Of a DNA stretch of 64,000 bases, positions 53,249 to 63,996 are shown piece by piece. Every line of letters begins with the position of its first letter. Position 1 is the stretch's first letter. The DNA comes from an uncultured Microbacteriaceae bacterium (GTDB lineage Bacteria; Actinomycetota; Actinomycetes; Actinomycetales; Microbacteriaceae): NCBI GenBank assembly GCA_903859205.1, contig CAIOLM010000023.1, positions 1 to 64,000 of the forward strand, given 5' to 3'. Under the pieces are notes generated by a model that was not told where the DNA came from, made no database searches, and was given only the letters and a program-made list of their open reading frames with translations. A program made the translations under genes and the position numbers.

Positions 53249-54670
53249 GTGACAACGCACTATGACCACTGGATTGACGGTCGTTCCACGAAGGGCGACA
53301 CCGACGATCGCTTCGTCACCCACAACCCCGCCACGGGCGCGGAGGCGTCATCCATTGCCTTAGGTGGTCCGCGTGAGGTCGCCCTGGCCGTTGATGCGGC
53401 TGCTTCCGCTGCGGCGTCTTGGCGCCGGTGTAAGCCAGTTGAGCGTGCCCGGCTCATGCTGGCCTTGGCGGCCCGCATTCTGGAGGAACAAGATCGTCTT
53501 GCCCAGATCGAGACGTCAGAAACCGGAAAACTTGCCGCCCTTGTGCCTCTGGAAATCGCAAATTCAGCCGCTTACTTCGAGTTCTATGGCGGGCTGACTC
53601 ATTCGGTACACGGGGACACGATTGACCTCGGGCCTGGGTTCCACTCCTATACCGTGCGCGAACCTTTCGGAGTTGTGGGCATTATTACGCCGTGGAACGC
53701 GCCGCTCAACCAGGCGGCACGAGCCGGGGCGCCGGCCTTGGCCGTGGGCAACACGATTGTCATCAAACCGTCGGAATTTACCTCCGCGACCACCCTAGAA
53801 CTCGCGCGACTGGCTTCTGAAGTCGGTTTCCCGCCGGGCGTGATCAATGTCGTGACCGGCGTCGGCGCGGACGCGGGTTCGGCCCTAGTGCAGCACCCTC
53901 GGGTCAGGAAAATTGCCTTTACGGGCTCCCTGCGTGCCGGTAAAGAGATTGGCAAAATTGCCGCGGATCGAATCCTGCCACTCACTCTTGAGTTGGGCGG
54001 TAAGAGCGCAAATATCGTTTTCGCTGATGCGGATTTCGACAAGGCAGTTGCGGGCGCTCTCCGAGCGTTCACGGCGAACGCGGGTCAGACGTGCACGGCG
54101 GGGTCACGACTTTTGGTGCAGGAAGACATCCATGATCAGTTCGTCGAGCGACTCGTTCTGGCAGCCAAGGGGGTTGTGCCGGGGGTCACTCTCGGGCCGA
54201 TGACGACTGTTGCCCAGCGCGAGAAAGTTCACGAGTACTTTCTCATTGCTCACGAAGACGGCGCAGTGGCAGCGCTCGGCGGTGAACCCGTGAGCTCGGA
54301 AGCCTTGCGTCAGGGAAATTTTGTGACGCCCACCATCTATGTTGGTGTGTCGAATGACATGCGGATCGCCCGCGAAGAAGTTTTCGGCCCAGTACTTTCG
54401 GTCATTCCCTTCGCGAGCGAAGCAGAAGCGATTGAGATTGCCAACGACTCCGACTACGGGCTCGCGTCGGGCGTATGGACCCAAGACATTTCTCGCGCGC
54501 ACCGGGTCGCGTTCCAGATTGAGGCCGGTCAGGTCTATGTGAACACGTGGATGGGGCCGATCGTTGAGACTCCCTTTGGCGGCTTCAAAATGAGTGGCTA
54601 CGGTAGGGAAAAGGGTCTCGAGGCGCTTCATAATTACACTCAAGTGAAGAGCATTACTGTCGAACTTTGA
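53249..54670 (+). CDS. NAD(P)-dependent aldehyde dehydrogenase
   Basis: A 473-residue enzyme of the ALDH superfamily, oxidising an aldehyde to the carboxylate. The GTG start 53249 fits the N-terminus YDHWIDGR. FGVVGIITPWNAPLNQA (about 143) and IKPSEFTSATT (about 172) bind the cofactor; the general base is the Glu in LTLELGGKSANIVFADADFD and the nucleophile the Cys in ANAGQTCTAGSRL (about 285). PFGGFKMSGYGREKG is the C-terminal signature. It begins a cluster with IclR 24 bp downstream. Substrate unknown; betaine-aldehyde or semialdehyde dehydrogenases are the closest types. Confidence 0.92.
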   Translation: MTTHYDHWIDGRSTKGDTDDRFVTHNPATGAEASSIALGGPREVALAVDAAASAAASWRRCKPVERARLMLALAARILEEQDRLAQIETSETGKLAALVPLEIANSAAYFEFYGGLTHSVHGDTIDLGPGFHSYTVREPFGVVGIITPWNAPLNQAARAGAPALAVGNTIVIKPSEFTSATTLELARLASEVGFPPGVINVVTGVGADAGSALVQHPRVRKIAFTGSLRAGKEIGKIAADRILPLTLELGGKSANIVFADADFDKAVAGALRAFTANAGQTCTAGSRLLVQEDIHDQFVERLVLAAKGVVPGVTLGPMTTVAQREKVHEYFLIAHEDGAVAALGGEPVSSEALRQGNFVTPTIYVGVSNDMRIAREEVFGPVLSVIPFASEAEAIEIANDSDYGLASGVWTQDISRAHRVAFQIEAGQVYVNTWMGPIVETPFGGFKMSGYGREKGLEALHNYTQVKSITVEL

Positions 54671-54694: not shown

Positions 54695-55486
54695 ATGGCT
54701 ACCAGCTCAGAGCGTGAGGGCGCAAAGCGCTCGGTTCTCGGGCGTGCTTTTGAGATTTTGGATTGTTTCGAGGGCGCTGGCGACGAGGTCAGTGTCGCGC
54801 ACATCGTTGAGAAGACGGGTCTCCCAGCGGCCACCGTTCACCGACTCCTCAGCACTCTCTTGAGCTGGGGTGGCGTCGAACGCGTCTCTCATGGGCGCTA
54901 CCGGTTGAGCGACCGCGTGTGGCGTCTGGGGCTCGGTGCGCCAGCCGTAAAGAGGCTCCACGAGATAGCCCAGCCCATCCTGGTGCAACTTCATGTGGCT
55001 ACTCAGGGCACCGTCTATCTTGCGGTGCGCGACAGGGGCTACGGACTCTTTGTCGATCGGATCACCCGCATCAAAACCACTCCGGAAACCGTGAGCGCCA
55101 GCCGGCGTCTCCCGCTCGAACAGACCGGCGGAGGAAGGGTTCTGTTGGCCTTTTCCCCGGAAGCTCAATACGAACGACACGTGCTCAACAAACGGAACAC
55201 CTCGGCGAAGAAGTTGCACGATGACCTCGCGGATATCCTCGATGGCATTCGTCGAACCGGGGTTGCCGTTACTCACGACGACGTGATCCCCGGGCGCCTT
55301 TCTGTGGCCGCCCCCATTTTTGACAGCGAAAAGGGAATCATCGCCAGCGTCTCCGTGACATTTCGTGAGGAAAAACTCAATCCGCGGGCAATCGAGACGG
55401 CGCTCATTCCCAACGTGAAACTGGCGGCGAAGGCCATCGCCTCTGAGATGGCCAGCCTGAGCCTGCTCGAGTCAGATTCTCGCTAA
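54695..55486 (+). CDS. IclR family transcriptional regulator
   Basis: A 263-residue regulator. The N-terminal winged helix has RSVLGRAFEILDCF and VAHIVEKTGLPAATVHRLLSTLLSWGGVE (about 26-54). The C-terminal IclR effector domain has GTVYLAVRDRGYGLFVDRI, LPLEQTGGGRVLLAFSPE and the late SVTFREEKLNP segment. IclR proteins often control catabolic operons in response to an acid or its CoA derivative. It is downstream of the aldehyde dehydrogenase and precedes the acyl-CoA dehydrogenase by 144 bp, which probably contain the promoter it regulates. Confidence 0.93.
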   Translation: MATSSEREGAKRSVLGRAFEILDCFEGAGDEVSVAHIVEKTGLPAATVHRLLSTLLSWGGVERVSHGRYRLSDRVWRLGLGAPAVKRLHEIAQPILVQLHVATQGTVYLAVRDRGYGLFVDRITRIKTTPETVSASRRLPLEQTGGGRVLLAFSPEAQYERHVLNKRNTSAKKLHDDLADILDGIRRTGVAVTHDDVIPGRLSVAAPIFDSEKGIIASVSVTFREEKLNPRAIETALIPNVKLAAKAIASEMASLSLLESDSR

Positions 55487-55630: not shown

Positions 55631-56797
55631 ATGTCCTACACACTCAGCGAAGAACAAGTGGCGATCAAGGAAGCAATCGACGATCTGGCCCGCGGCTTTG
55701 GCGATGAGTACTGGAGAACCGTCGATCGGGCGAGGGAGTATCCCGATGCATTCGTCGCAGCTCTCACAGAGGGCGGCTGGCTGTCGATGCTCATTCCCGA
55801 GGAGTACGGCGGCGGGGGCGCGAGTATCCAAGATGCGGCCGTCGTTCTCGAGGCTCTTGAGCGCAATGGATGTTCGGCGGGAGCTGCCCACGCCCAGATG
55901 TACACCATGGGCGTGATTTTGCGCCACGGAAGTGACGAGCAAAAGCAGCGCTACCTTCCGGCCATTGCCGCAGGAAAGCTTCGTCTTCAGTCTTTTGCCG
56001 TGACGGAACCCGACGCGGGAACCGACACGACCCGAATTCGCACCTTTGCCGTCCGCGAGGGTGACGAGTATGTGATCAACGGAAACAAGATTTGGACCTC
56101 ACGGGTCCAGCATTCTGATCTTCTGATTCTCTTGGCCCGGACCACCAGGTTTGAGGACGTAGAGAAGAAGACCGACGGAATGAGCGTTTTCATCGTTGAT
56201 CTTCCCGAGGCCCTGCGCACCGGCCAGATTGTCGCGTCCAAGATTGACACGATGGTGAACCACGAAACAAATGAACTCGCAATCGTGAACCTGCGGGTCC
56301 CGGCAACGAACCTCATCGGTGAAGAAGGGAAAGGATTCCGGAGCATCGTAAGTGGCCTGAATTCCGAACGAATTCTGGTGACCTCCGAATACATCGGAGC
56401 CGGATTGTGGTTTATCGATCGCGCCTGCGCCTATGCCAAGCAGCGCGAAGTCTTCGGACGTCCAATCGGTCTCAACCAGGGAATTCAGTTCCCCATTGCC
56501 CAGGCCTACGCGAACCTGCAGGCGGCTAGCTTGATGCGGTGGCAAGCGGCCGATCTCTTTGAGTCAGGCGGGAATCCGCAGTTCGAAGTGAACGCGGCCA
56601 AGTTGCTGGGGTCGCAGGCTCTCTGGGCTGCGGCCAATGCGGCGTTCGACACCTATGGCGGATTTGCCGTGGCGGAGGAGTACGCTGTCGAACGACGATT
56701 CCGCGAAGCACGGCTGCCGAGCATCGCGCCGATTAGCAACAACATCGTGCTTGCGGGAATCGCGCACGGAACTCTCGGTCTGCCTAAGTCGTACTAA
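55631..56797 (+). CDS. acyl-CoA dehydrogenase family flavoprotein
   Basis: A 388-residue FAD enzyme that should introduce an alpha,beta double bond in an acyl-CoA. The signatures FAVTEPDAGTDTTRI (about 119-133) and YVINGNKIWTS (about 147) are clear, as is AYAKQREVFGRPIGLNQGIQFPIAQAYA. At the C-terminus the usual catalytic Glu motif (xxGTxE) is replaced by APISNN, and Glu246 in GLNSERI lies where isovaleryl-CoA dehydrogenase has its catalytic base. Ends GLPKSY, as in a subgroup of diverged bacterial ACADs. Its stop overlaps the next start by one base. Confidence 0.9.
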   Translation: MSYTLSEEQVAIKEAIDDLARGFGDEYWRTVDRAREYPDAFVAALTEGGWLSMLIPEEYGGGGASIQDAAVVLEALERNGCSAGAAHAQMYTMGVILRHGSDEQKQRYLPAIAAGKLRLQSFAVTEPDAGTDTTRIRTFAVREGDEYVINGNKIWTSRVQHSDLLILLARTTRFEDVEKKTDGMSVFIVDLPEALRTGQIVASKIDTMVNHETNELAIVNLRVPATNLIGEEGKGFRSIVSGLNSERILVTSEYIGAGLWFIDRACAYAKQREVFGRPIGLNQGIQFPIAQAYANLQAASLMRWQAADLFESGGNPQFEVNAAKLLGSQALWAAANAAFDTYGGFAVAEEYAVERRFREARLPSIAPISNNIVLAGIAHGTLGLPKSY

Positions 56798-58218
56798 TGA
56801 AGTCGCACAGCGGTCACGGCTTGACTGCCACCATCGTGGAGTTTGCGTTGCGTCCCGTCGCGCCCTCAGCGCGCATTGAGCACGCGGTCACACGTGCCCT
56901 CATCGATACCGTCGGTGTCACCCTTGCCGCACAGAACGTCGAAGCAGAGCCCCTTGTCCGAACGTGGGCCCTTGCCCAGGCCTCTACCGGAACTTCACCG
57001 GTGTGGACCTCGGGGGACCTGGTGACACCCTCTACGGCAGCTTTCATCAATGCCACGGCCGCGCACGTTCTGGATTACGACGATATTTCGCCCACGCGAC
57101 CCATGCATCCGAGTGCCGTTTTGCTGCCAGCGATTTTGGCGGTGGCGCAGGTGCGAGAAGCCGACCCACGACTCATCGTCACGGCGTACTCGGTGGGGGC
57201 TGCCGTGTTCCGAGCCGTAGCCGATTTACTGCCCCACGAGGTTCACTATGAGCGCGGTTGGCACACCACCTCGACGGTTGGCCGCCTCGCGACTGTTGCC
57301 TCCCTCATCTCGCTGTGCCGACTCACTCCGCAACAGGGGGCCCGCGCGCTCGGCGTGGTGTCGTCGTTAGCTGCGGGGATGTTGGCAAATTTCGGCACGA
57401 TGACGAAGCCACTCCACGCCGGGCTTGCTGCCCGCGATGCAATCATGGCGTGTGAATTGGTAGAGGCAGGATTCACCGCCAACGAAACCGCTCTCGAGAC
57501 GGACCGCGGCTTTCTCGACATGTACGGTGCAGAACGGGGCAATCGCCCGGGGCATTCTTCGGATCAGCTCATGGACGCGCTCGAATACTGGCGCGCGGAA
57601 TGGGATACGGATTGGGGCATCAAGAGATACCCCGCGTGTTACGCCACCCACCGTGCGGCAGATGCGGCCCTCCGTTTGCGAGCCGCGCACGATGTGAAAT
57701 CTGCGCGGCACATCACGGTGACTGTCCATCCGGAAGGGCTGCGACCCCTGCTGACGGGACATCCTCAGACGTCCAACGAAGCAAAGTTCACCATGTCATA
57801 CGTGATTGCCACAGCCATTCTCACGGGCGAGTTGCGCCTTCGGGATTTTGACGGAGATGCTCTTTCGAACCCAGCGGTGATCGAGCTGATGACGAGGATT
57901 ACCGTGGCTGAGTCAGAAATTCCCCCGTTGGGGCCTCCCGAATACGAGGGAGGTTTTGCCGTAGTCTCTCTGGAAATGGCCGATGGACAGATAGTTCGTG
58001 AACGCGCCGATGTGACGCACGGTGATTCTCGGAGCCCCCTCACGGAAGGTGAGCTCACGGCCAAATTCCTGGATTGCTGTTCGGGCGGCAACCTCTCATT
58101 ACCCCAGGCGCAAGTGCTCTTTCGGGCCCTCGAGAATTTGCCGGGCGGACAGAGCGACTTTACGCAACTGCTCAACGCCCTGAGCGCACGCGAAGATTTC
58201 GGGGGCATCAGGCCATGA
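56797..58218 (+). CDS. MmgE/PrpD family protein
   Basis: A 473-residue protein of the family that includes 2-methylcitrate dehydratase and cis-aconitate decarboxylase. The two-domain fold shows the N-terminal helical AAHVLDYDDISPTRPMHPSAVLLPAILAVAQV in outline (residues about 88-119), with the active-site Asp/His region, and WHTTSTVGRLATVASL near 150. A central YPACYATHRAADAALRLR segment follows. A small lid domain fills the C-terminus. A dehydratase, decarboxylase or epimerase activity on a polycarboxylic acid is plausible. It overlaps both neighbours, so it belongs to the acyl-CoA operon. Confidence 0.9.
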   Translation: MKSHSGHGLTATIVEFALRPVAPSARIEHAVTRALIDTVGVTLAAQNVEAEPLVRTWALAQASTGTSPVWTSGDLVTPSTAAFINATAAHVLDYDDISPTRPMHPSAVLLPAILAVAQVREADPRLIVTAYSVGAAVFRAVADLLPHEVHYERGWHTTSTVGRLATVASLISLCRLTPQQGARALGVVSSLAAGMLANFGTMTKPLHAGLAARDAIMACELVEAGFTANETALETDRGFLDMYGAERGNRPGHSSDQLMDALEYWRAEWDTDWGIKRYPACYATHRAADAALRLRAAHDVKSARHITVTVHPEGLRPLLTGHPQTSNEAKFTMSYVIATAILTGELRLRDFDGDALSNPAVIELMTRITVAESEIPPLGPPEYEGGFAVVSLEMADGQIVRERADVTHGDSRSPLTEGELTAKFLDCCSGGNLSLPQAQVLFRALENLPGGQSDFTQLLNALSAREDFGGIRP

Positions 58219-59384
58219 CCGAAAGTGGAGCACACAACCCGTCAGCGCACCTTCCCCGCGTGACGATTGTTGAAGAGGGAATGCGCGAGGGGATGCAGAT
58301 TGAAAGCGCAGACATTTCCGTGGATGCCAAAGTACGACTCCTGGACGCACTGTCGCGCACGGGACTTACGCACATCGTGGCGGGTTCGTTTGTGAGTCCC
58401 CGTTGGGTTCCGCAGATGAAAGACGTCGACGAGCTCTTGCGCAGGTTTACGCCTGCTCCAGGTGTCACTTACACGGCACTCAGCCTGAACCACCAGGGCG
58501 AACTTCGCAAGGCAGAGCACACCCCACCGCTCTCACCCCCCGATGGGGTGGGCAGATCGATGCTTCATTTGTGCGACGTCTTTTTGCAGCGTAATACTGC
58601 GCGGACCCTCGAACAGGAGCGTGTCGCAGTGGCGGAGACGATAGAACGCGCTGTCGATGTCGGCGTCTCGAGTGCCATCATTGCCGTCAACGCCGCGTGG
58701 GGATCGAACTGGCTGGGCGCGTTTTCCGAAGAGCAGCGAATGGAGGCCCTCGCCTTTCAGAGGGACGCGTGGATGACAGCGGGAATCCCCACGACGGGTG
58801 TTTATTTGGGCGACCCTATGAGTTGGAACACTCCTCGGGTTGTTCGTGCTCACGTTCGCCACGTCATCGAGACGTGGCCAGACCTCACCTCTGTTCACCT
58901 CCACCTGCACAACGGACGCGGCACGGCCCCCTTATCGGCCTATGCGGCACTGCACGAGTTGGACGAACGCCATGAACTCATCATCGATTCGTCGATTGGC
59001 GGCATGGGCGGCTGCCCCTATTGCGGAAACGGCCGAGCCACGAAGATGATTCCCACGGAAGACCTCGTTTTCCTGTTGGAGAGCGAAGGGATCGATACGG
59101 GGGTAGACCTGCCAGCACTCATCGAGGCAGCTCACCTCGCCGAAGAAGTCGTGGGGCACGAACTCTATGGGCATGTGTCGAAGGTCGGCGCCCTGCCCTC
59201 GGGGCAGTCGCTTTATGCCATGGACATGCCTCTCATTGAGACCATCGCCGAGGCACAACACTTTCGGTTAGGCCCCGGTACTTATGCCGGCGGCTCGGCG
59301 CCGTGGAAATCACCCATCACGTCAGTGCACCGTGATGAGCTTTCCGCGCGTGAGAGTTCGCCGACGGGTGGCGAACCAGAATGA
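58215..59384 (+). CDS. divergent hydroxymethylglutaryl-CoA lyase-like enzyme (DRE-TIM family)
   Basis: A 389-residue TIM barrel. ATG 58215 overlaps the MmgE/PrpD stop (ATGA). It matches HMG-CoA lyase in GSFVSPRWVPQMKDVDELL (about 56), the GGMGGCPYCGNG Cys267 region, LHLHN with His230 and His232, and SEGIDTGVDLPALIEA. Two metal-site changes are seen: the first-strand motif GPRDGLQNE is here GMREGMQIE with Asp replaced by Glu25, and HCHD is HLHN with Asp replaced by Asn233. So it probably cleaves a related but different 3-hydroxyacyl-CoA or citramalyl-type substrate. Confidence 0.85.
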   Translation: MTESGAHNPSAHLPRVTIVEEGMREGMQIESADISVDAKVRLLDALSRTGLTHIVAGSFVSPRWVPQMKDVDELLRRFTPAPGVTYTALSLNHQGELRKAEHTPPLSPPDGVGRSMLHLCDVFLQRNTARTLEQERVAVAETIERAVDVGVSSAIIAVNAAWGSNWLGAFSEEQRMEALAFQRDAWMTAGIPTTGVYLGDPMSWNTPRVVRAHVRHVIETWPDLTSVHLHLHNGRGTAPLSAYAALHELDERHELIIDSSIGGMGGCPYCGNGRATKMIPTEDLVFLLESEGIDTGVDLPALIEAAHLAEEVVGHELYGHVSKVGALPSGQSLYAMDMPLIETIAEAQHFRLGPGTYAGGSAPWKSPITSVHRDELSARESSPTGGEPE

Positions 59385-60658
59385 CAACGTCGCCGCAGCC
59401 CGGCACGGGCTCTCTCGCGGGTCTCCGCGTCGTTGAGATCGGAACGAGTGTTGCCGCCCCCTATGCGGCCCAGATCCTCGGAGATTTTGGCGCGGATGTC
59501 GTCAAGGTGGAACGCATCGGTACCGGTGATGACAGCCGCAGTTGGGCTCCGCCTCAGTGGGACGGGGTCAGTGTGACGTTCCTGGCTTTGAACCGCAGCA
59601 AACGGAGTCTCGTTGTCGACTACAAATCCGACGCGGGAAAAAAGATTTTGGAAAGCCTCATTTCGGAGAGCGACGTCCTGATCCAAAACCTGAGGCCCGG
59701 CGCGCTCGCGGCCGCAGGATTTGATGCGGGGCACATCAGGACCCTGAATCCGAGACTCATCTATTGCGAGCTTTCGGGCTTCGGTTCCGTGGGGCCTCGG
59801 GCGAGTGATCCGGCCTATGACCCGCTCGTGCAGGCCTTCAGTGGCATCGTCAGCATTACCGGTGACGAGAGCAGCGCACCGTCGAGAGTCCCCGTTTCTC
59901 TTCTCGACATGGGTACGGGAATGTGGGCCGCCCTCGCCGTGTTTGAGGCTTTGCGTCGACGAGACCAGACGGGCTTGGGAAGTCACGTGGAGCTGTCTCT
60001 TTTGCAGACGGCTCTGACGTGGTTGACCATTCCGCTCATGGGAGTTCAGTCGGGAAGCCCGGTTCCCGGTCGCCAGGGGTCTGGACTTGCGGGTGTCGTG
60101 CCCTACGGCGCCTTCCCGTCGTCCGACGGGTACGTGTTTATCTCGGCGGGAAACAATCAGACGTGGCACGACCTACTCGATGCTCTGGGGGCGGGGCACC
60201 TCAAGGAAGTGGACGAGTATTCGACCAACCCACAACGGGTGATGCATCGTGAGGGCGTGACGCGAGACCTGTCGGCAGCAACGTCCCGGTTGACGTCTCA
60301 CGAACTTGTCGGCCTGTTAGCCGCAGCGCGCATCCCGCATTCACCGGTGCAAACGTTGGACCAAGTCCTCGGCGACGAGCAGGTCCACGCACTCGGCCAG
60401 TTCAGGGCACTCCACCATGACGAGATATCCGAATTCACTACCCTCAATCTTCCGATGACGTTCGACGGCGTCTATCCCGAAATTTCGCAGGCACCTCCTG
60501 CGCTGGGCGCTGATACGCACGGTGTCCTCGCGTCGCTTGGGTTGTCCGAGGCCGTCATCGCGGATCTTCTTACCCAGGGGGTTGTGCAACAAGCGGAACC
60601 CGGAAGCGACAGAATGGCTTCCGACGCCACCACGAAACGAACTGACGGTGCTGTATGA
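59381..60658 (+). CDS. family III CoA-transferase (CaiB/BaiF type)
   Basis: A 425-residue enzyme that moves CoA between carboxylic acids without a kinase. It begins SLAGLRVVEIGTSVAAPYAAQILGDFGADVVKVE in outline (about 7-41), with LNRSKRSLVVDYKS and VLIQNLRPGAL. The catalytic Asp176 lies in SLLDMGTGMWAALAVFEAL. It probably activates the acid substrate of the cluster using a product CoA ester as donor. The start overlaps the lyase stop by 4 bp and the stop overlaps the enoyl-CoA hydratase start by 4 bp. The donor is unknown. Confidence 0.93.
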   Translation: MTTSPQPGTGSLAGLRVVEIGTSVAAPYAAQILGDFGADVVKVERIGTGDDSRSWAPPQWDGVSVTFLALNRSKRSLVVDYKSDAGKKILESLISESDVLIQNLRPGALAAAGFDAGHIRTLNPRLIYCELSGFGSVGPRASDPAYDPLVQAFSGIVSITGDESSAPSRVPVSLLDMGTGMWAALAVFEALRRRDQTGLGSHVELSLLQTALTWLTIPLMGVQSGSPVPGRQGSGLAGVVPYGAFPSSDGYVFISAGNNQTWHDLLDALGAGHLKEVDEYSTNPQRVMHREGVTRDLSAATSRLTSHELVGLLAAARIPHSPVQTLDQVLGDEQVHALGQFRALHHDEISEFTTLNLPMTFDGVYPEISQAPPALGADTHGVLASLGLSEAVIADLLTQGVVQQAEPGSDRMASDATTKRTDGAV

Positions 60659-61464
60659 CCACGAAAGGTGCTCCTATGTCTGACCACTCCGACGAGGTTG
60701 TTTACGAGGTTCGTGGCCATGTCGCCTTCATCCGCATCAATCGACCCGAGCGACGAAACGCACTTGCCACTTCTACGGTCGAAGCAATCAGCAACAGTTT
60801 TGTCCGGGCCGGCGAAGACGACAACGTGTGGGCAATCGTGCTAACTGGCACGGGCGACAAAGCCTTTTGCGCGGGTGGAGACCTAAAAGAAATGGACGAG
60901 ATTGCTCGGTCCGGTGCGCAGATCCACATGCCGATGACGGGACCCTCCCGCAACATGTTCGAAATCATCCTGGAGACATACAAACCCACCATTGCTGCGG
61001 TCAACGGGGCGGCGCTCGCCGGAGGGTGCGAACTTCTGCTCGCCTGCGACCTGCGCATCGCCGTAGACGATGTGCAGATTGGGCTACCCGAGGCAAAGCG
61101 CGGCATGGGCGCCAATTTTGCCTCAGTCGTTCTTCCCCGCATGATTCCCCGAGCCATTGCCATGGAGATGTTGTACACGGGCAAGTCCATCGGTGCTCAG
61201 GAGGCTCGAGACTTGGGGCTCATCAACCGGGTGGTGGCGCGCGCAGACTTCGACTCTGCCGTTCAGTCGTTTGTCGACGAGATTGTGGTCAACGCGCCGG
61301 TGTCACTCAGGCGTTACAAGGAAATGGCCGCGAAGGGGTGGGAACTGCCCGTCTCGGTGGCCCTTCGCTTGAACGCCGGACCGAATCCGTACACCAGTGA
61401 AGATCGCGTCGAAGGCGTTCGCGCTTTCGTTGAGAAACGGACGCCGAACTGGAAGAACCGCTAA
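60655..61464 (+). CDS. enoyl-CoA hydratase/isomerase family protein
   Basis: A 269-residue crotonase-fold enzyme. ATG 60655 overlaps the previous stop, but GAAAGG before ATG 60676 makes that start equally likely. Features are AFIRINRPERRNAL, FCAGGDLKEM (oxyanion hole), NGAALAGGCELLLACDLRIA and GLPEAKRGMGANFASVVLPR. Both catalytic glutamates of enoyl-CoA hydratases (GGCELL and LPEAKRG) are present, so true hydration is possible. The usual GAGGTQRLPR is replaced by MGANFASVVLPR. It is the last of five overlapping genes and its stop is 6 bp from the convergent Fe-ADH stop. Confidence 0.92.
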   Translation: MTTKGAPMSDHSDEVVYEVRGHVAFIRINRPERRNALATSTVEAISNSFVRAGEDDNVWAIVLTGTGDKAFCAGGDLKEMDEIARSGAQIHMPMTGPSRNMFEIILETYKPTIAAVNGAALAGGCELLLACDLRIAVDDVQIGLPEAKRGMGANFASVVLPRMIPRAIAMEMLYTGKSIGAQEARDLGLINRVVARADFDSAVQSFVDEIVVNAPVSLRRYKEMAAKGWELPVSVALRLNAGPNPYTSEDRVEGVRAFVEKRTPNWKNR

Positions 61465-61470
61465 GAAACC

Positions 61471-62667
61471 TCAGGCAAGCGAAGCGACCAAATCTGTCAT
61501 TTCGGTGCGCGACGGAATTCCGCCGGGGATGCCATCGACAAGGAAATCTTCGAAGATACCCTCGACGATCGCGGAGATGTCACTGTCACTCATGACAATG
61601 CCTGCTTCACCGAGGGTTAACGGCAGACCCAGACCAGAGATGAAGATGGTTAGGAATTCAGCGAGGGCATTTCCGAGGTTTTCTGTCGAGAACTGAGAAT
61701 CATCGATGCCGCACGCTCGCAGGATCGGCCGGATTTTTTCTCCCGTACGCGGCGCCAAGAACCTGGCCACGGTCGGCAGCGTGACGCACGACGACAGGCC
61801 GTGAGCCAGACCGAGCCGGGCTCCGAGTTGATGACCAATCGCGTGGGAGAGACCCAAGGTGCCATTGCTAACACCAAAGTACGACTGCCACGATGCCAAT
61901 TGAGCGTCACCCCGAAGGGCTGAGTCCGTGGGGTTCATGAGGGTGGCGGGCAACACGCGCACGAGGGCGGTGATGGCCGCACAGCTCAGACTGTCGCTGA
62001 ACATCGACGACTGATCCGACAGCACGGTTTCGATGGCGTGATCAAGTGTTCGCATTCCCGTCATGACCCACGCAGCGGCGGGTGTTGCCACGGCGGCATC
62101 GCTATCCAGGATGACGGCGGCGGCGGCCATCGGAGGTCCGGCGAACAGGTCCTTGTTTCCTGTTGTGGGATTCTTGAGCGCACCGCCGTCTCCAAACTCA
62201 GCGGACGACAGCGTGGTCGGGATGGCAATGTGTGGAATGGTTCGAGCGGCCGCAGCAGGAAAGATTGGCCCGTGATCCGACCGCTGGGCTCGGTACTCGT
62301 AAAGAGCGTCCTCGGTCGAGATGTTTTCGCCCACACACAGTGAGACCAGCCGGGCCGTGTCAATGGTGCTTCCACCGCCGAGGCTCACCACACAATCGGC
62401 ATCTGCTTCGCGGGCGACTTGCGCGGCGGCCAGCGCGACGCCGTAGGGAGTGTGCGGCTGCACGGAATCGAAGATCGCAACAATTCGCTTGCCGGACCAT
62501 TCCGTGAGGCGGGCAACGAGGGCTGCGTCACGGCCGGCAGACGGCGTCAGAATGAGGAAGGCGCGACGAGCCCCATACGCATCGAGCACTTCACCCAGCC
62601 GCGACATACTTCCCGGGCCAGACCACATTGCGCCGACGTTCGGATACCGGAATACGCCTTGGCTCAT
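61471..62667 (-). CDS. iron-containing alcohol dehydrogenase, maleylacetate reductase-like
   Basis: A 398-residue enzyme with an N-terminal dinucleotide fold and C-terminal metal domain. Features are CVVSLGGGSTIDTARLVSL (about 95), HIAIPTTLSSAEFGDGGAL, DHAIETVLS and the metal motif HAIGHQLGARLGLAHGLSSCVTLP (about 262-285) with conserved His. The overall pattern is closer to maleylacetate reductase (reducing maleylacetate to 3-oxoadipate) than to primary alcohol dehydrogenases. It is convergent to the acyl-CoA operon and probably starts a minus-strand unit with the alpha/beta hydrolase. Substrate uncertain. Confidence 0.88.
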   Translation of the reverse strand: MSQGVFRYPNVGAMWSGPGSMSRLGEVLDAYGARRAFLILTPSAGRDAALVARLTEWSGKRIVAIFDSVQPHTPYGVALAAAQVAREADADCVVSLGGGSTIDTARLVSLCVGENISTEDALYEYRAQRSDHGPIFPAAAARTIPHIAIPTTLSSAEFGDGGALKNPTTGNKDLFAGPPMAAAAVILDSDAAVATPAAAWVMTGMRTLDHAIETVLSDQSSMFSDSLSCAAITALVRVLPATLMNPTDSALRGDAQLASWQSYFGVSNGTLGLSHAIGHQLGARLGLAHGLSSCVTLPTVARFLAPRTGEKIRPILRACGIDDSQFSTENLGNALAEFLTIFISGLGLPLTLGEAGIVMSDSDISAIVEGIFEDFLVDGIPGGIPSRTEMTDLVASLA

Positions 62668-62730: not shown

Positions 62731-63618
62731 CTAGGCTTGCTCGGCGATGTCATCGTCTTTCAGCCGGCTCAATATGTCTGCAAAGACCGGCATGATGTAC
62801 GACTTGAAGAGCTCGGGATTCTCAGACATCGGGAAGTGACCGAGACCTTCCATGAGAGTGTAGGTCGACCCGGGCACCTCATCGTGCAGAGCCTTGACCA
62901 CTTTCGGCGATCCCGACCAGTCGTAGTCGCCACCCAAGAGATACACGGCGATTTGCTTCGTATTGATTGTTTTGGCCGAACTGCTCACGTCGTGTTCTCC
63001 GCCGTAGTAGTTGAGATCGCCCTCGAAAACGCGATGCGAACCTTGGCCGTAGATGAAGGCCACTTCACGCTTGAGTGCTTCGGGGCTCATCGGTGCCATA
63101 AAGGTGTACATCATGGCCGCCTTGGTTTCGTTTGTCATGCGCGGGTGACCAAAGTAGGTGCGCAGTTCCGGCGGCGCAGAGTTTTCGGTGGCTAGCCCGG
63201 CTTCGAGACCGATGACAGCGCGGAACTTATCAGGATGGCTGATGGCTAAGTCTGCCGCGAGGTGGCCGCCCATCGACGCGCCCATGTACACCGGGCGATT
63301 CAGTTCAAACGCTTGGTTGAACTTGATCATGAACTCGAACAAAAAGTTGAGCGTCAGTTTGTATTCCTCGCTCCACCAAGATCGAGATGTTGGCGGTATC
63401 GACTTGCCGTGAAAGGGGAGGTCCGGCACGAGGACGCGGAAGTTCGACGTGATGTCGCTGTCTTCCAAGATGTGGCGGTACAGACGTCCGTCGGTTCCCG
63501 CGGTGTGCATGAGCACGAGCGGGATGCCCTCGCCGGCCTCCTCGTAGAAGACGCGATACTCGGTGCCTTGAATGTCGAGGTAGACGTAACCCCCGTGAAT
63601 CGGCGAAATTTTAGCCAT
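62731..63618 (-). CDS. alpha/beta hydrolase (ring-cleavage-product hydrolase-like)
   Basis: A 295-residue hydrolase. LVLMHTAGTDGRLYRHI is the oxyanion region, the nucleophile Ser lies in MGASMGGHLAADLA (about 116), the Asp in LLGGDYDWSGSP (about 230) and the His in MEGLGHFPMSENPELF (about 262). This triad layout and length suit hydrolases of C-C bond cleavage products or esters in aromatic and terpenoid catabolism, but the specificity is not visible. It lies 21 bp downstream of the SCP2-like gene and 63 bp upstream of the Fe-ADH gene, on the same strand. Confidence 0.85.
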   Translation of the reverse strand: MAKISPIHGGYVYLDIQGTEYRVFYEEAGEGIPLVLMHTAGTDGRLYRHILEDSDITSNFRVLVPDLPFHGKSIPPTSRSWWSEEYKLTLNFLFEFMIKFNQAFELNRPVYMGASMGGHLAADLAISHPDKFRAVIGLEAGLATENSAPPELRTYFGHPRMTNETKAAMMYTFMAPMSPEALKREVAFIYGQGSHRVFEGDLNYYGGEHDVSSSAKTINTKQIAVYLLGGDYDWSGSPKVVKALHDEVPGSTYTLMEGLGHFPMSENPELFKSYIMPVFADILSRLKDDDIAEQA

Positions 63619-63639: not shown

Positions 63640-63996
63640 TCAGGCAGCCCGGGAGGCTTCGTTGTTGACCTGACGCATCAGGTCGGTTGTTCGCCGGACG
63701 GCCGCGTAGTAGCAGTAGAAACTCTCGAGGTCTCCCGTGATTCGGAGCCCATGGTGAAACTGTGCAGGAAAGAGGTCTTGAAAGAGGGGCGCCGGGACAG
63801 CGGCAAGAATCTCACTCCACACCTCGTCGGGGGCTGAAATGTCGGCCGTGAATTCGTGGAACAGTCCTGGCGCCGGAACAATCTCGGTCACCACGCCATC
63901 GCGAATCACGACGAGGAACGAGTCGTCGCCGAGACGATATCGCAGTCGGGCATCCCACATTCGTGACGACAGCGCGAACTCGGGGTCCGCGTTCAT
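63640..63996 (-). CDS. SCP2-like sterol-carrier-type protein (start possibly beyond window)
   Basis: 118 residues if ATG 63996 is the start; the frame stays open to the window edge, so the true start may lie outside. The sequence ARLRYRLGDDSFLVVIRDGVVTEI and HEFTADISAPDEVWSEILAAVPAPLF fits the SCP2/DUF1940-like lipid-binding fold, which holds hydrophobic acyl or sterol ligands. Its role beside a hydrolase and Fe-ADH is unknown; it could carry or sense a hydrophobic substrate of the cluster. Moderate confidence in family only. Confidence 0.6.
   Translation of the reverse strand: MNADPEFALSSRMWDARLRYRLGDDSFLVVIRDGVVTEIVPAPGLFHEFTADISAPDEVWSEILAAVPAPLFQDLFPAQFHHGLRITGDLESFYCYYAAVRRTTDLMRQVNNEASRAA

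Follow-up and report, generated by a model that had tools for sequence, protein, structure and literature searches.

The window analysed here, a stretch of 64,000 nucleotides from an uncultured freshwater Microbacteriaceae bacterium (contig CAIOLM010000023.1), contains a run of genes read in one direction (+) for an aldehyde dehydrogenase (ALDH), an IclR-type regulator, an acyl-CoA dehydrogenase (ACAD), an MmgE/PrpD protein, an acyl-CoA lyase, a CaiB-type CoA-transferase and an enoyl-CoA hydratase (ECH; Table 1). Reading frames overlap by 1 base at 56797 and by 4 bases (ATGA) at 58215-58218, 59381-59384 and 60655-60658, and these overlapping junctions from ACAD to ECH make one operon. The lyase, the subject of this report, has the fold of 3-hydroxy-3-methylglutaryl-CoA (HMG-CoA) lyase, known in humans from ketone-body metabolism; new here is a metal site rebuilt consistently across many bacteria within this known fold. 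The original prediction for this locus regarded the lyase gene as fused by overlap to the MmgE/PrpD gene and considered this unusual. There is no fusion, the ATGA overlap is ordinary operon packing, and MmgE/PrpD directly precedes the lyase in many relatives, yet this neighbour is the best clue to function.

The lyase and its metal site

The only Pfam match of the lyase at E 0.001 is PF00682 (2.7e-14, above the cut-off); the CitE/HpcH family, to which CitE-type citramalyl-CoA lyases belong, gives none at this threshold. The nearest curated NCBIfam model is NF004283, HMG-CoA lyase, at 145.9 bits and thus below its cut-off of 246, and among PDB sequences human HMG-CoA lyase 2cw6 matches best (1.9e-31). 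An AlphaFold2 model built from 61 aligned sequences (the window protein and 60 of 76 locus sequences) has a mean pLDDT of 93. Its top structural matches (Foldseek/VIA) are the HMG-CoA lyases 1ydo and 6nds (both Z 32.8) and 2cw6 (Z 32.5), with homocitrate and isopropylmalate synthases ranking lower (Z about 20-23).

According to the available part of PMC6941031, human HMG-CoA lyase has the catalytic residues Arg41, Glu72, Tyr167 and Cys266 and the Mg ligands Asp42, His233, His235 and Asn275. These columns were followed in an alignment of 101 homologues (window, fetched loci and plasmids, the loci and plasmid records being numbered L) and three PDB chains. For residue counts the window duplicate L081 was dropped, L106 was set aside, and the rows were divided into 83 with Met, Leu or Gln at column 275, 13 of Asp42 type (the 3 PDB chains included) and 6 others (L100-L105). 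This grouping fixes column 275 of the first group and column 42 of the second by definition, the other columns being free. The 275-type rows form one clade, here the M278 clade, with a FastTree support of 0.954 (84 rows including the duplicate).

Arg41 (window Arg24), both metal-binding His and Cys266 are kept throughout the clade, the Arg in 82/82 rows with a letter, and Cys266 is also found in 12/13 Asp42-type rows. Two of the four Mg ligands and at least one of the four named catalytic residues differ clade-wide, namely Asp42, Asn275 and Glu72 (Table 1), of which Glu72 and Asn275 are each present in 13/13 Asp42-type rows. The column of human Tyr167 aligns with window Ala157 in a poorly aligned stretch, where Tyr and Thr each occur in 5 of the 13 Asp42-type rows. 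Close to Cys267 the lyase has a loop insertion of two residues relative to the human enzyme, which holds Asn272. This residue is N in 48 and H in 35 of the 83 clade rows, with nothing else found, and the insertion position is absent in 13/13 Asp42-type rows.

Glutamate in place of aspartate can still bind a metal. Methionine binds Mg or Mn poorly, and residue 272 alternates in the clade between just two side chains, both able to bind a metal. On the simplest interpretation of the alignment, the fourth metal ligand may thus have moved from the 275 position to residue 272. In such a site His230, His232, Arg24 and Cys267 would act as in HMG-CoA lyase, Glu25 would take the place of the Asp ligand, Asn or His at 272 in the inserted loop would stand in for the lost Asn275, and Val55 together with Met278 would lower the polarity of the pocket.

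The residues on which the original prediction rested (Glu25, His230, His232, Asn233 and Cys267) are all present as it stated when aligned with 2cw6. Its claim of an altered site with a changed substrate holds up, given the clade-wide replacements and the lack of a leucine-pathway carboxylase among the ten proteins scanned around the lyase (lyase included), whereas the changed metal that it offered as an alternative is unreadable from sequence. Asn233, which it took as a sign of change, had to be given up: column 236 is D in 42 and N in 41 clade rows, and D 6, N 4, E 2 and A 1 in the 13 Asp42-type rows, the N including the solved 6nds. As D and N split evenly in the clade and N occurs in Asp42-type, canonical enzymes, the residue is uninformative for changed function. 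Val55, Met278, the two-residue insertion with Asn272 and a C-terminal extension had been missed, and the oddity of the site is larger than was reported. In 61 aligned members the extension has invariant Pro328, Pro339, His349, Phe350, Gly353 and Pro363, and the median length of clade members is 389 aa, against 304-351 aa in 17 other rows measured.

Table 1. Features of the lyase gene and of the genes around it in the window (positions of the whole stretch).
Feature	Coordinates	Strand	Remarks
HMGL-like (DRE-TIM) acyl-CoA lyase, M278-type subfamily	58215..59384	+	389 aa; stop codon inside end coordinate
Glu25 codon	58287..58289	+	at human Mg ligand Asp42; E in 82/82 clade rows with a letter
Val55 codon	58377..58379	+	at human catalytic Glu72; V in 76/83 clade rows
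His230-Leu-His232-Asn233	58902..58913	+	at human His233, His235 and Asp236; both His kept in 83/83
Cys267 codon	59013..59015	+	at human catalytic Cys266; C in 83/83 clade rows
Asn272 codon	59028..59030	+	inserted loop CPYCGNGR; proposed replacement metal ligand
Met278 codon	59046..59048	+	at human Mg ligand Asn275; M 81, L 1, Q 1 of 83 (group-defining residue)
C-terminal extension, residues 325-389	59187..59381	+	conserved in clade
MmgE/PrpD protein	56797..58218	+	473 aa; PF03972/PF19305; predicted epimerase of 2-substituted succinate
Acyl-CoA dehydrogenase (ACAD)	55631..56797	+	388 aa; Pfam; same position in ten further five-gene loci
CaiB-type (family III) CoA-transferase	59381..60658	+	425 aa; PF02515 3.9e-108
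Crotonase-type enoyl-CoA hydratase (ECH)	60655..61464	+	269 aa; PF00378 6.7e-57
Aldehyde dehydrogenase (ALDH)	53249..54670	+	473 aa; PF00171; NCBIfam matches listed (25) all below cut-off
IclR-type regulator	54695..55486	+	263 aa; PF01614/PF09339; its cluster c3 in 9/24 loci, window included
Iron-type alcohol dehydrogenase	61471..62667	-	PF00465; convergent with operon, membership uncertain; otherwise only in L001-L003 among loci compared
Alpha/beta hydrolase	62731..63618	-	PF00561; membership uncertain; close copies only in L001-L003

Neighbouring genes in the window and its relatives

The MmgE/PrpD protein of the window has an IDS epimerase as its best PDB match (8.9e-54). Its His104/Tyr151 correspond to the proton pair His99/Tyr145 of IDS epimerase, and Lys204 and Lys276 are also kept. 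MmgE/PrpD proteins are mostly uncharacterised, and the substrates known for them share a four-carbon dicarboxylate (PMC12290011, available part). From these residues the protein is predicted to be an epimerase of 2-substituted succinate. The role of a cis-aconitate decarboxylase appears less suitable, as the catalytic Tyr present here is absent at this position in the mouse decarboxylase. The CaiB protein is closest in PDB to succinate-hydroxymethylglutarate CoA-transferase (3.5e-66).

Open reading frames in the fetched loci were found by conservation-ranked calling. The order ACAD-MmgE-lyase-CaiB-ECH occurs in 10 of 77 loci (L004, L005, L006 and L008-L014 among L004-L080); in L004 and L005 an ALDH separates CaiB from ECH. 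The window, L001 and L002 have the same five-gene order, and L003 ends at a contig edge. Genes of aromatic metabolism were counted (tblastn, E 1e-30) in 16 operon-type loci (L004-L017, L019, L021), a set formed after the genes had been seen, and in the 61 others among L018-L080; the median stretches are 17,101 and 14,449 bases, respectively, and MmgE is not seen in the covered stretch of L007, nor ACAD in that of L021. A benzoylformate-decarboxylase-like thiamine diphosphate (ThDP) enzyme is found in 9/16 operon-type loci, a 3-hydroxybenzoate-6-hydroxylase-like FAD enzyme in 8/16, and a fumarylacetoacetate-hydrolase-type enzyme (FAH) and a gentisate-dioxygenase-like enzyme in 5/16 each, all against 0/61, a contrast that Fisher values overstate because the loci share descent. 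An ALDH match is present in 10/16. On the benzoylformate decarboxylase model NF005485 (cut-off 493 bits) the ThDP enzyme of L008 scores 738.8 and lies above the cut-off, whereas the copies of L005 (460.8) and of the window's genome (490.6, outside the window) lie below; the FAD hydroxylases and dioxygenases scanned in relatives are below their model cut-offs.

The Novosphingobium humi plasmid locus L103 (3826-15336) has FAH, gentisate-dioxygenase-like and FAD hydroxylase genes in a row directly before CaiB and a lyase 42% identical to that of the window; these aromatic proteins are 71, 54 and 62% identical, respectively, to those of Actinomycetota. It also encodes an IclR regulator and, after the lyase, an aconitase-family protein, which may shift a hydroxyl group for the lyase, and two ALDHs. 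Its aromatic genes suggest independent support for a bulky or aryl substituent on the substrate. Two betaproteobacterial plasmids, of Variovorax SRS16 and Diaphorobacter HDW4B (L100, L102), hold a counterpart of the set, a version of the operon assembled separately, in which the hydratases are of the MaoC kind, the CoA-transferases are of double length and the ThDP enzymes belong to other lineages. They also encode binding proteins of tripartite tricarboxylate transporters. Relatives of this plasmid ACAD, CoA-transferase and MaoC set adjoin 275-type lyases in L046 (Chloroflexi) and L107 (Rhodococcus USK10).

In the window's genome (G000) the lyase has no further homologue at E 1e-3. A ThDP enzyme and a divergent ALDH are encoded side by side on another contig of it, C36 (L098); the former is 45-51% identical to the copies of L004, L005, L009, L015 and L021 (51% to L005), and the latter 62% identical to those of L006 and L008. 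The ThDP enzyme is also present in all three genomes of L001-L003 (67-71%). Further observations concern the same genome, which is 1.7 Mb in size. Electron-transfer flavoprotein-like genes, read from translation, follow the operon shortly beyond the window (contig C23, L099 1276-3035), and an EtfB-like gene (cluster c17) recurs in L001, L010 and L014. A 118-aa open frame at 63640-63996 (-) has no Pfam or NCBIfam match and is 96-97% identical in L001-L003. FAD_binding_3 gives 17 matches in this genome (noted for contigs C18, C34 and C23), many aromatic-type hydroxylases for a small genome, with four matches on C18 above 190 bits and one inside the window (C23:28382-29491).

The lyase is patchily distributed. 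Among 59 relatives searched with the protein, 11 match at E 1e-3, strongly only G000 and G014, the other nine at 9.3e-35 or weaker. Among 396 Actinomycetota genomes searched with the lyase alignment (four candidates scored per genome), seven match at E 1e-60, and four of these cover almost the full model with E below 1e-170. Such a spread suggests horizontal transfer. By record titles, clade members occur also in Acidimicrobiales and SAR202-type Chloroflexota; the neighbourhoods examined in the latter show no telling neighbour genes. L066, a metagenome bin whose title Bordetella parapertussis looks doubtful, has two tandem lyase-like matches at 1719 and 2931, 51 and 52% identical to the window protein.

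A second group within the clade spans loci of the range L018-L050 (e.g., L023, L025, L040) and comprises, by record titles, mostly Acidimicrobiales or Actinomycetes with some Acidobacteria or Microbacteriaceae. Its neighbours include LIV-type ABC transporter genes (two of them in 26/58 and 20/58 loci), PrpD-like (19/58), IclR (14/58) and PrpB (6/58) proteins, and CaiB. The PrpD-like protein scores 817 bits, below its cut-off of 950, and PrpB 393 bits, above its cut-off of 354.4. This group points to a different pathway, which may release propionyl-CoA. Because clade members sit in such differing gene neighbourhoods, the clade probably spans several substrates.

Candidate substrates and pathways

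The favoured reading, held with moderate confidence, is that the enzyme is a metal-dependent retro-Claisen/aldol lyase which would cleave a 2-substituted malyl-CoA, R-C(OH)(COOH)-CH2-CO-SCoA, to acetyl-CoA and the 2-oxo acid R-CO-COOH, in an operon degrading 2-substituted succinates. MmgE/PrpD would interconvert both stereoisomers of the substituted succinate, CaiB would then transfer CoA, ACAD form the 2-enoyl-CoA, the hydratase add water, and the lyase cut the product. In about half of the operon-type relatives the ThDP decarboxylase with an aldehyde dehydrogenase would convert R-CO-COOH to R-COOH. R would be bulky, perhaps aryl, in many relatives, because ThDP decarboxylase, FAD hydroxylase and gentisate-type genes are repeatedly found beside their operons; where gentisate genes are present it is probably a hydroxyphenyl group. 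An aryl-bearing 2-oxo acid, or the acid derived from it, would explain these recurrent aromatic genes, which pyruvate would not.

A more specific proposal is tentative. The M278 clade would be an unrecognised lyase subfamily with its fourth metal ligand moved from Asn275 to the loop Asn/His, and in Actinomycetota it would run an undescribed aerobic 2-arylsuccinate route, in which the substrate is epimerised, activated, dehydrogenated, hydrated and cleaved to arylglyoxylate and acetyl-CoA, the arylglyoxylate being decarboxylated and oxidised to hydroxybenzoate and then channelled through gentisate. Among the open-licence PMC papers listed, most of them covered by title and the beginning of the abstract, none names such a subfamily or an aerobic arylsuccinate route.

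Several findings weigh against the substituted-succinate reading and its aryl form. The window and L001-L003 contain none of the ThDP, FAD hydroxylase, FAH and gentisate genes (tblastn, E 1e-30), and the gentisate dioxygenase model has no match in the window's genome, because of which either the lower pathway or R differs there. The operon-type loci were grouped post hoc and share descent. The ThDP enzyme is not tightly linked to the operon: among 59 relatives six match at E 1e-80, with close copies (68-100%) in G000, G001, G002 and G014, of which G000 and G014 alone carry a lyase of the clade, and the gene may serve another route in the window's genus, as G001 and G002 belong to this genus and have it without the operon. 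In ten genomes with related loci the ThDP search gave seven matches, three of them at only 35-38%, and none at E 1e-60 in G454, G457 and G458. L103 has no ThDP match and no recognisable ACAD, ECH or MmgE genes, with an aconitase-family member instead, and the MmgE proteins of Variovorax and Diaphorobacter are without the epimerase Tyr, so that their function may differ. Finally, the same lyase residues are found in clade members beside other genes, and hence do not specify the proposed substrate.

The strongest competitor, though rather doubtful, is a plain methylsuccinate/itaconate pathway with R as methyl, in which the lyase, replacing the CitE type without being its orthologue, would be an HMGL-fold citramalyl-CoA lyase that yields pyruvate and acetyl-CoA. 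The gene set resembles a proven methylsuccinate cluster (PMC12290011, available part), the window's lack of the relatives' aromatic genes is in keeping with methyl, and 6nds, the top Foldseek match of the lyase model, was solved with 3-methylmalate bound according to its entry title. However, a pathway ending in pyruvate would have no use for a benzoylformate-decarboxylase-like enzyme, an FAD hydroxylase or a gentisate dioxygenase, all of which recur beside the operons of relatives, and the ALDH match in 10/16 operon-type loci is a further point against it.

The same enzymes and the same downstream aromatic genes could also shorten the side chain of arylpropanoates. CaiB, ACAD and ECH would make 3-hydroxy-3-arylpropanoyl-CoA, a secondary alcohol, from which the lyase would free an aryl aldehyde and acetyl-CoA, and the ALDH that is present would oxidise the aldehyde to hydroxybenzoate. 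This is unlikely, as it leaves no role for the 2-oxo-acid decarboxylase or for MmgE/PrpD, given the four-carbon dicarboxylates cited above (PMC12290011). Still less probable is that the protein is a genuine HMG-CoA lyase, serving leucine or isoprenoid breakdown and tolerating its substitutions: the fold, Arg, Cys and both His are kept and the protein is the sole one of its kind in the window's genome, but it scores below the curated cut-off, Asp42, Glu72 and Asn275 are all replaced, and the scanned neighbours lack a carboxylase. Least probable is a reading in which a 3-hydroxy dicarboxylate is taken up directly and the lyase forms propionyl-CoA from it. The transporter, CaiB, PrpD-like and PrpB genes beside second-group lyases would suggest this for the whole clade, but no LIV transporter, PrpB or methylcitrate-dehydratase-type PrpD is among the ten proteins scanned at the window operon, whose ACAD and hydratase point to a saturated starting acid.

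The auxin (iad) route was considered separately. Its chemistry would fit, with isatin or isatinate as product, but PMC12633357 infers an acyl-CoA synthase and a ketothiolase instead of an HMGL-type lyase, and PMC9613470 and PMC10374108 name no such lyase either, in the parts available of the three papers. Hydantoinase B has no match in the window's genome, and the hydantoinase genes beside the Variovorax SRS16 set have none at E 1e-12 in the other loci fetched.

The nearest curated model for the clade is HMG-CoA lyase, and plasmid records give more distant relatives that name; pathway predictions drawn from it are probably wrong for the clade. If the favoured reading, with its ligand shift, is true, Actinomycetota have a lyase with a relocated metal ligand and an operon for substituted succinates, and some MmgE/PrpD proteins gain a likely substrate class.

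Comparison with known systems

Compared with the HMG-CoA lyases (human HMGCL 2cw6, B. subtilis 1ydo, and 6nds), the window lyase shares the TIM-barrel fold (Z 32-33) and Arg41, His233, His235 and Cys266, and differs by Asp42 to Glu, Glu72 to Val, Asn275 to Met, the loop insertion, the C-terminal extension and the operon. The plasmid HMGL-like proteins L100-L105 (five proteobacterial, L104 from Arthrobacter) have Glu at Asp42 in 6/6 and the inserted loop residue (H 4, N 1, D 1), as in the M278 clade, but unlike it keep Asn275 in 6/6 and are 313-330 aa long; at column 72 they have Q 4, V 1 and E 1. Stepwise change may have left such a pattern. L106 (Caballeronia) is mixed, with Asp42, Gln72, the insertion with His, and Asn275.

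The itaconate/methylsuccinate cluster of C. necator and P. aeruginosa contains, according to the available part of PMC12290011, an MmgE/PrpD protein acting as methylsuccinate isomerase, an ACAD acting as methylsuccinyl-CoA dehydrogenase, a CoA-transferase, a hydratase and a citramalyl-CoA lyase; neither 'HMG-CoA' nor 'hydroxymethylglutaryl-CoA lyase' occurs in its text. Four of these five enzyme kinds are common to the window operon, whose lyase is of the HMGL type, another family, and the Actinomycetota relatives of the window add the ThDP decarboxylase and gentisate genes. The His/Tyr proton pair and both Lys of IDS epimerase and methylsuccinate isomerase are common to the window MmgE, which has Asp93 at the position for which PMC12290011 (same part) reports Glu91 in the isomerase of P. 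aeruginosa. Because the window MmgE keeps the epimerase residues within a parallel gene set, the comparison suggests that the window follows the dicarboxylate logic of the methylsuccinate cluster, an HMGL-fold lyase standing where that cluster has its citramalyl-CoA lyase.

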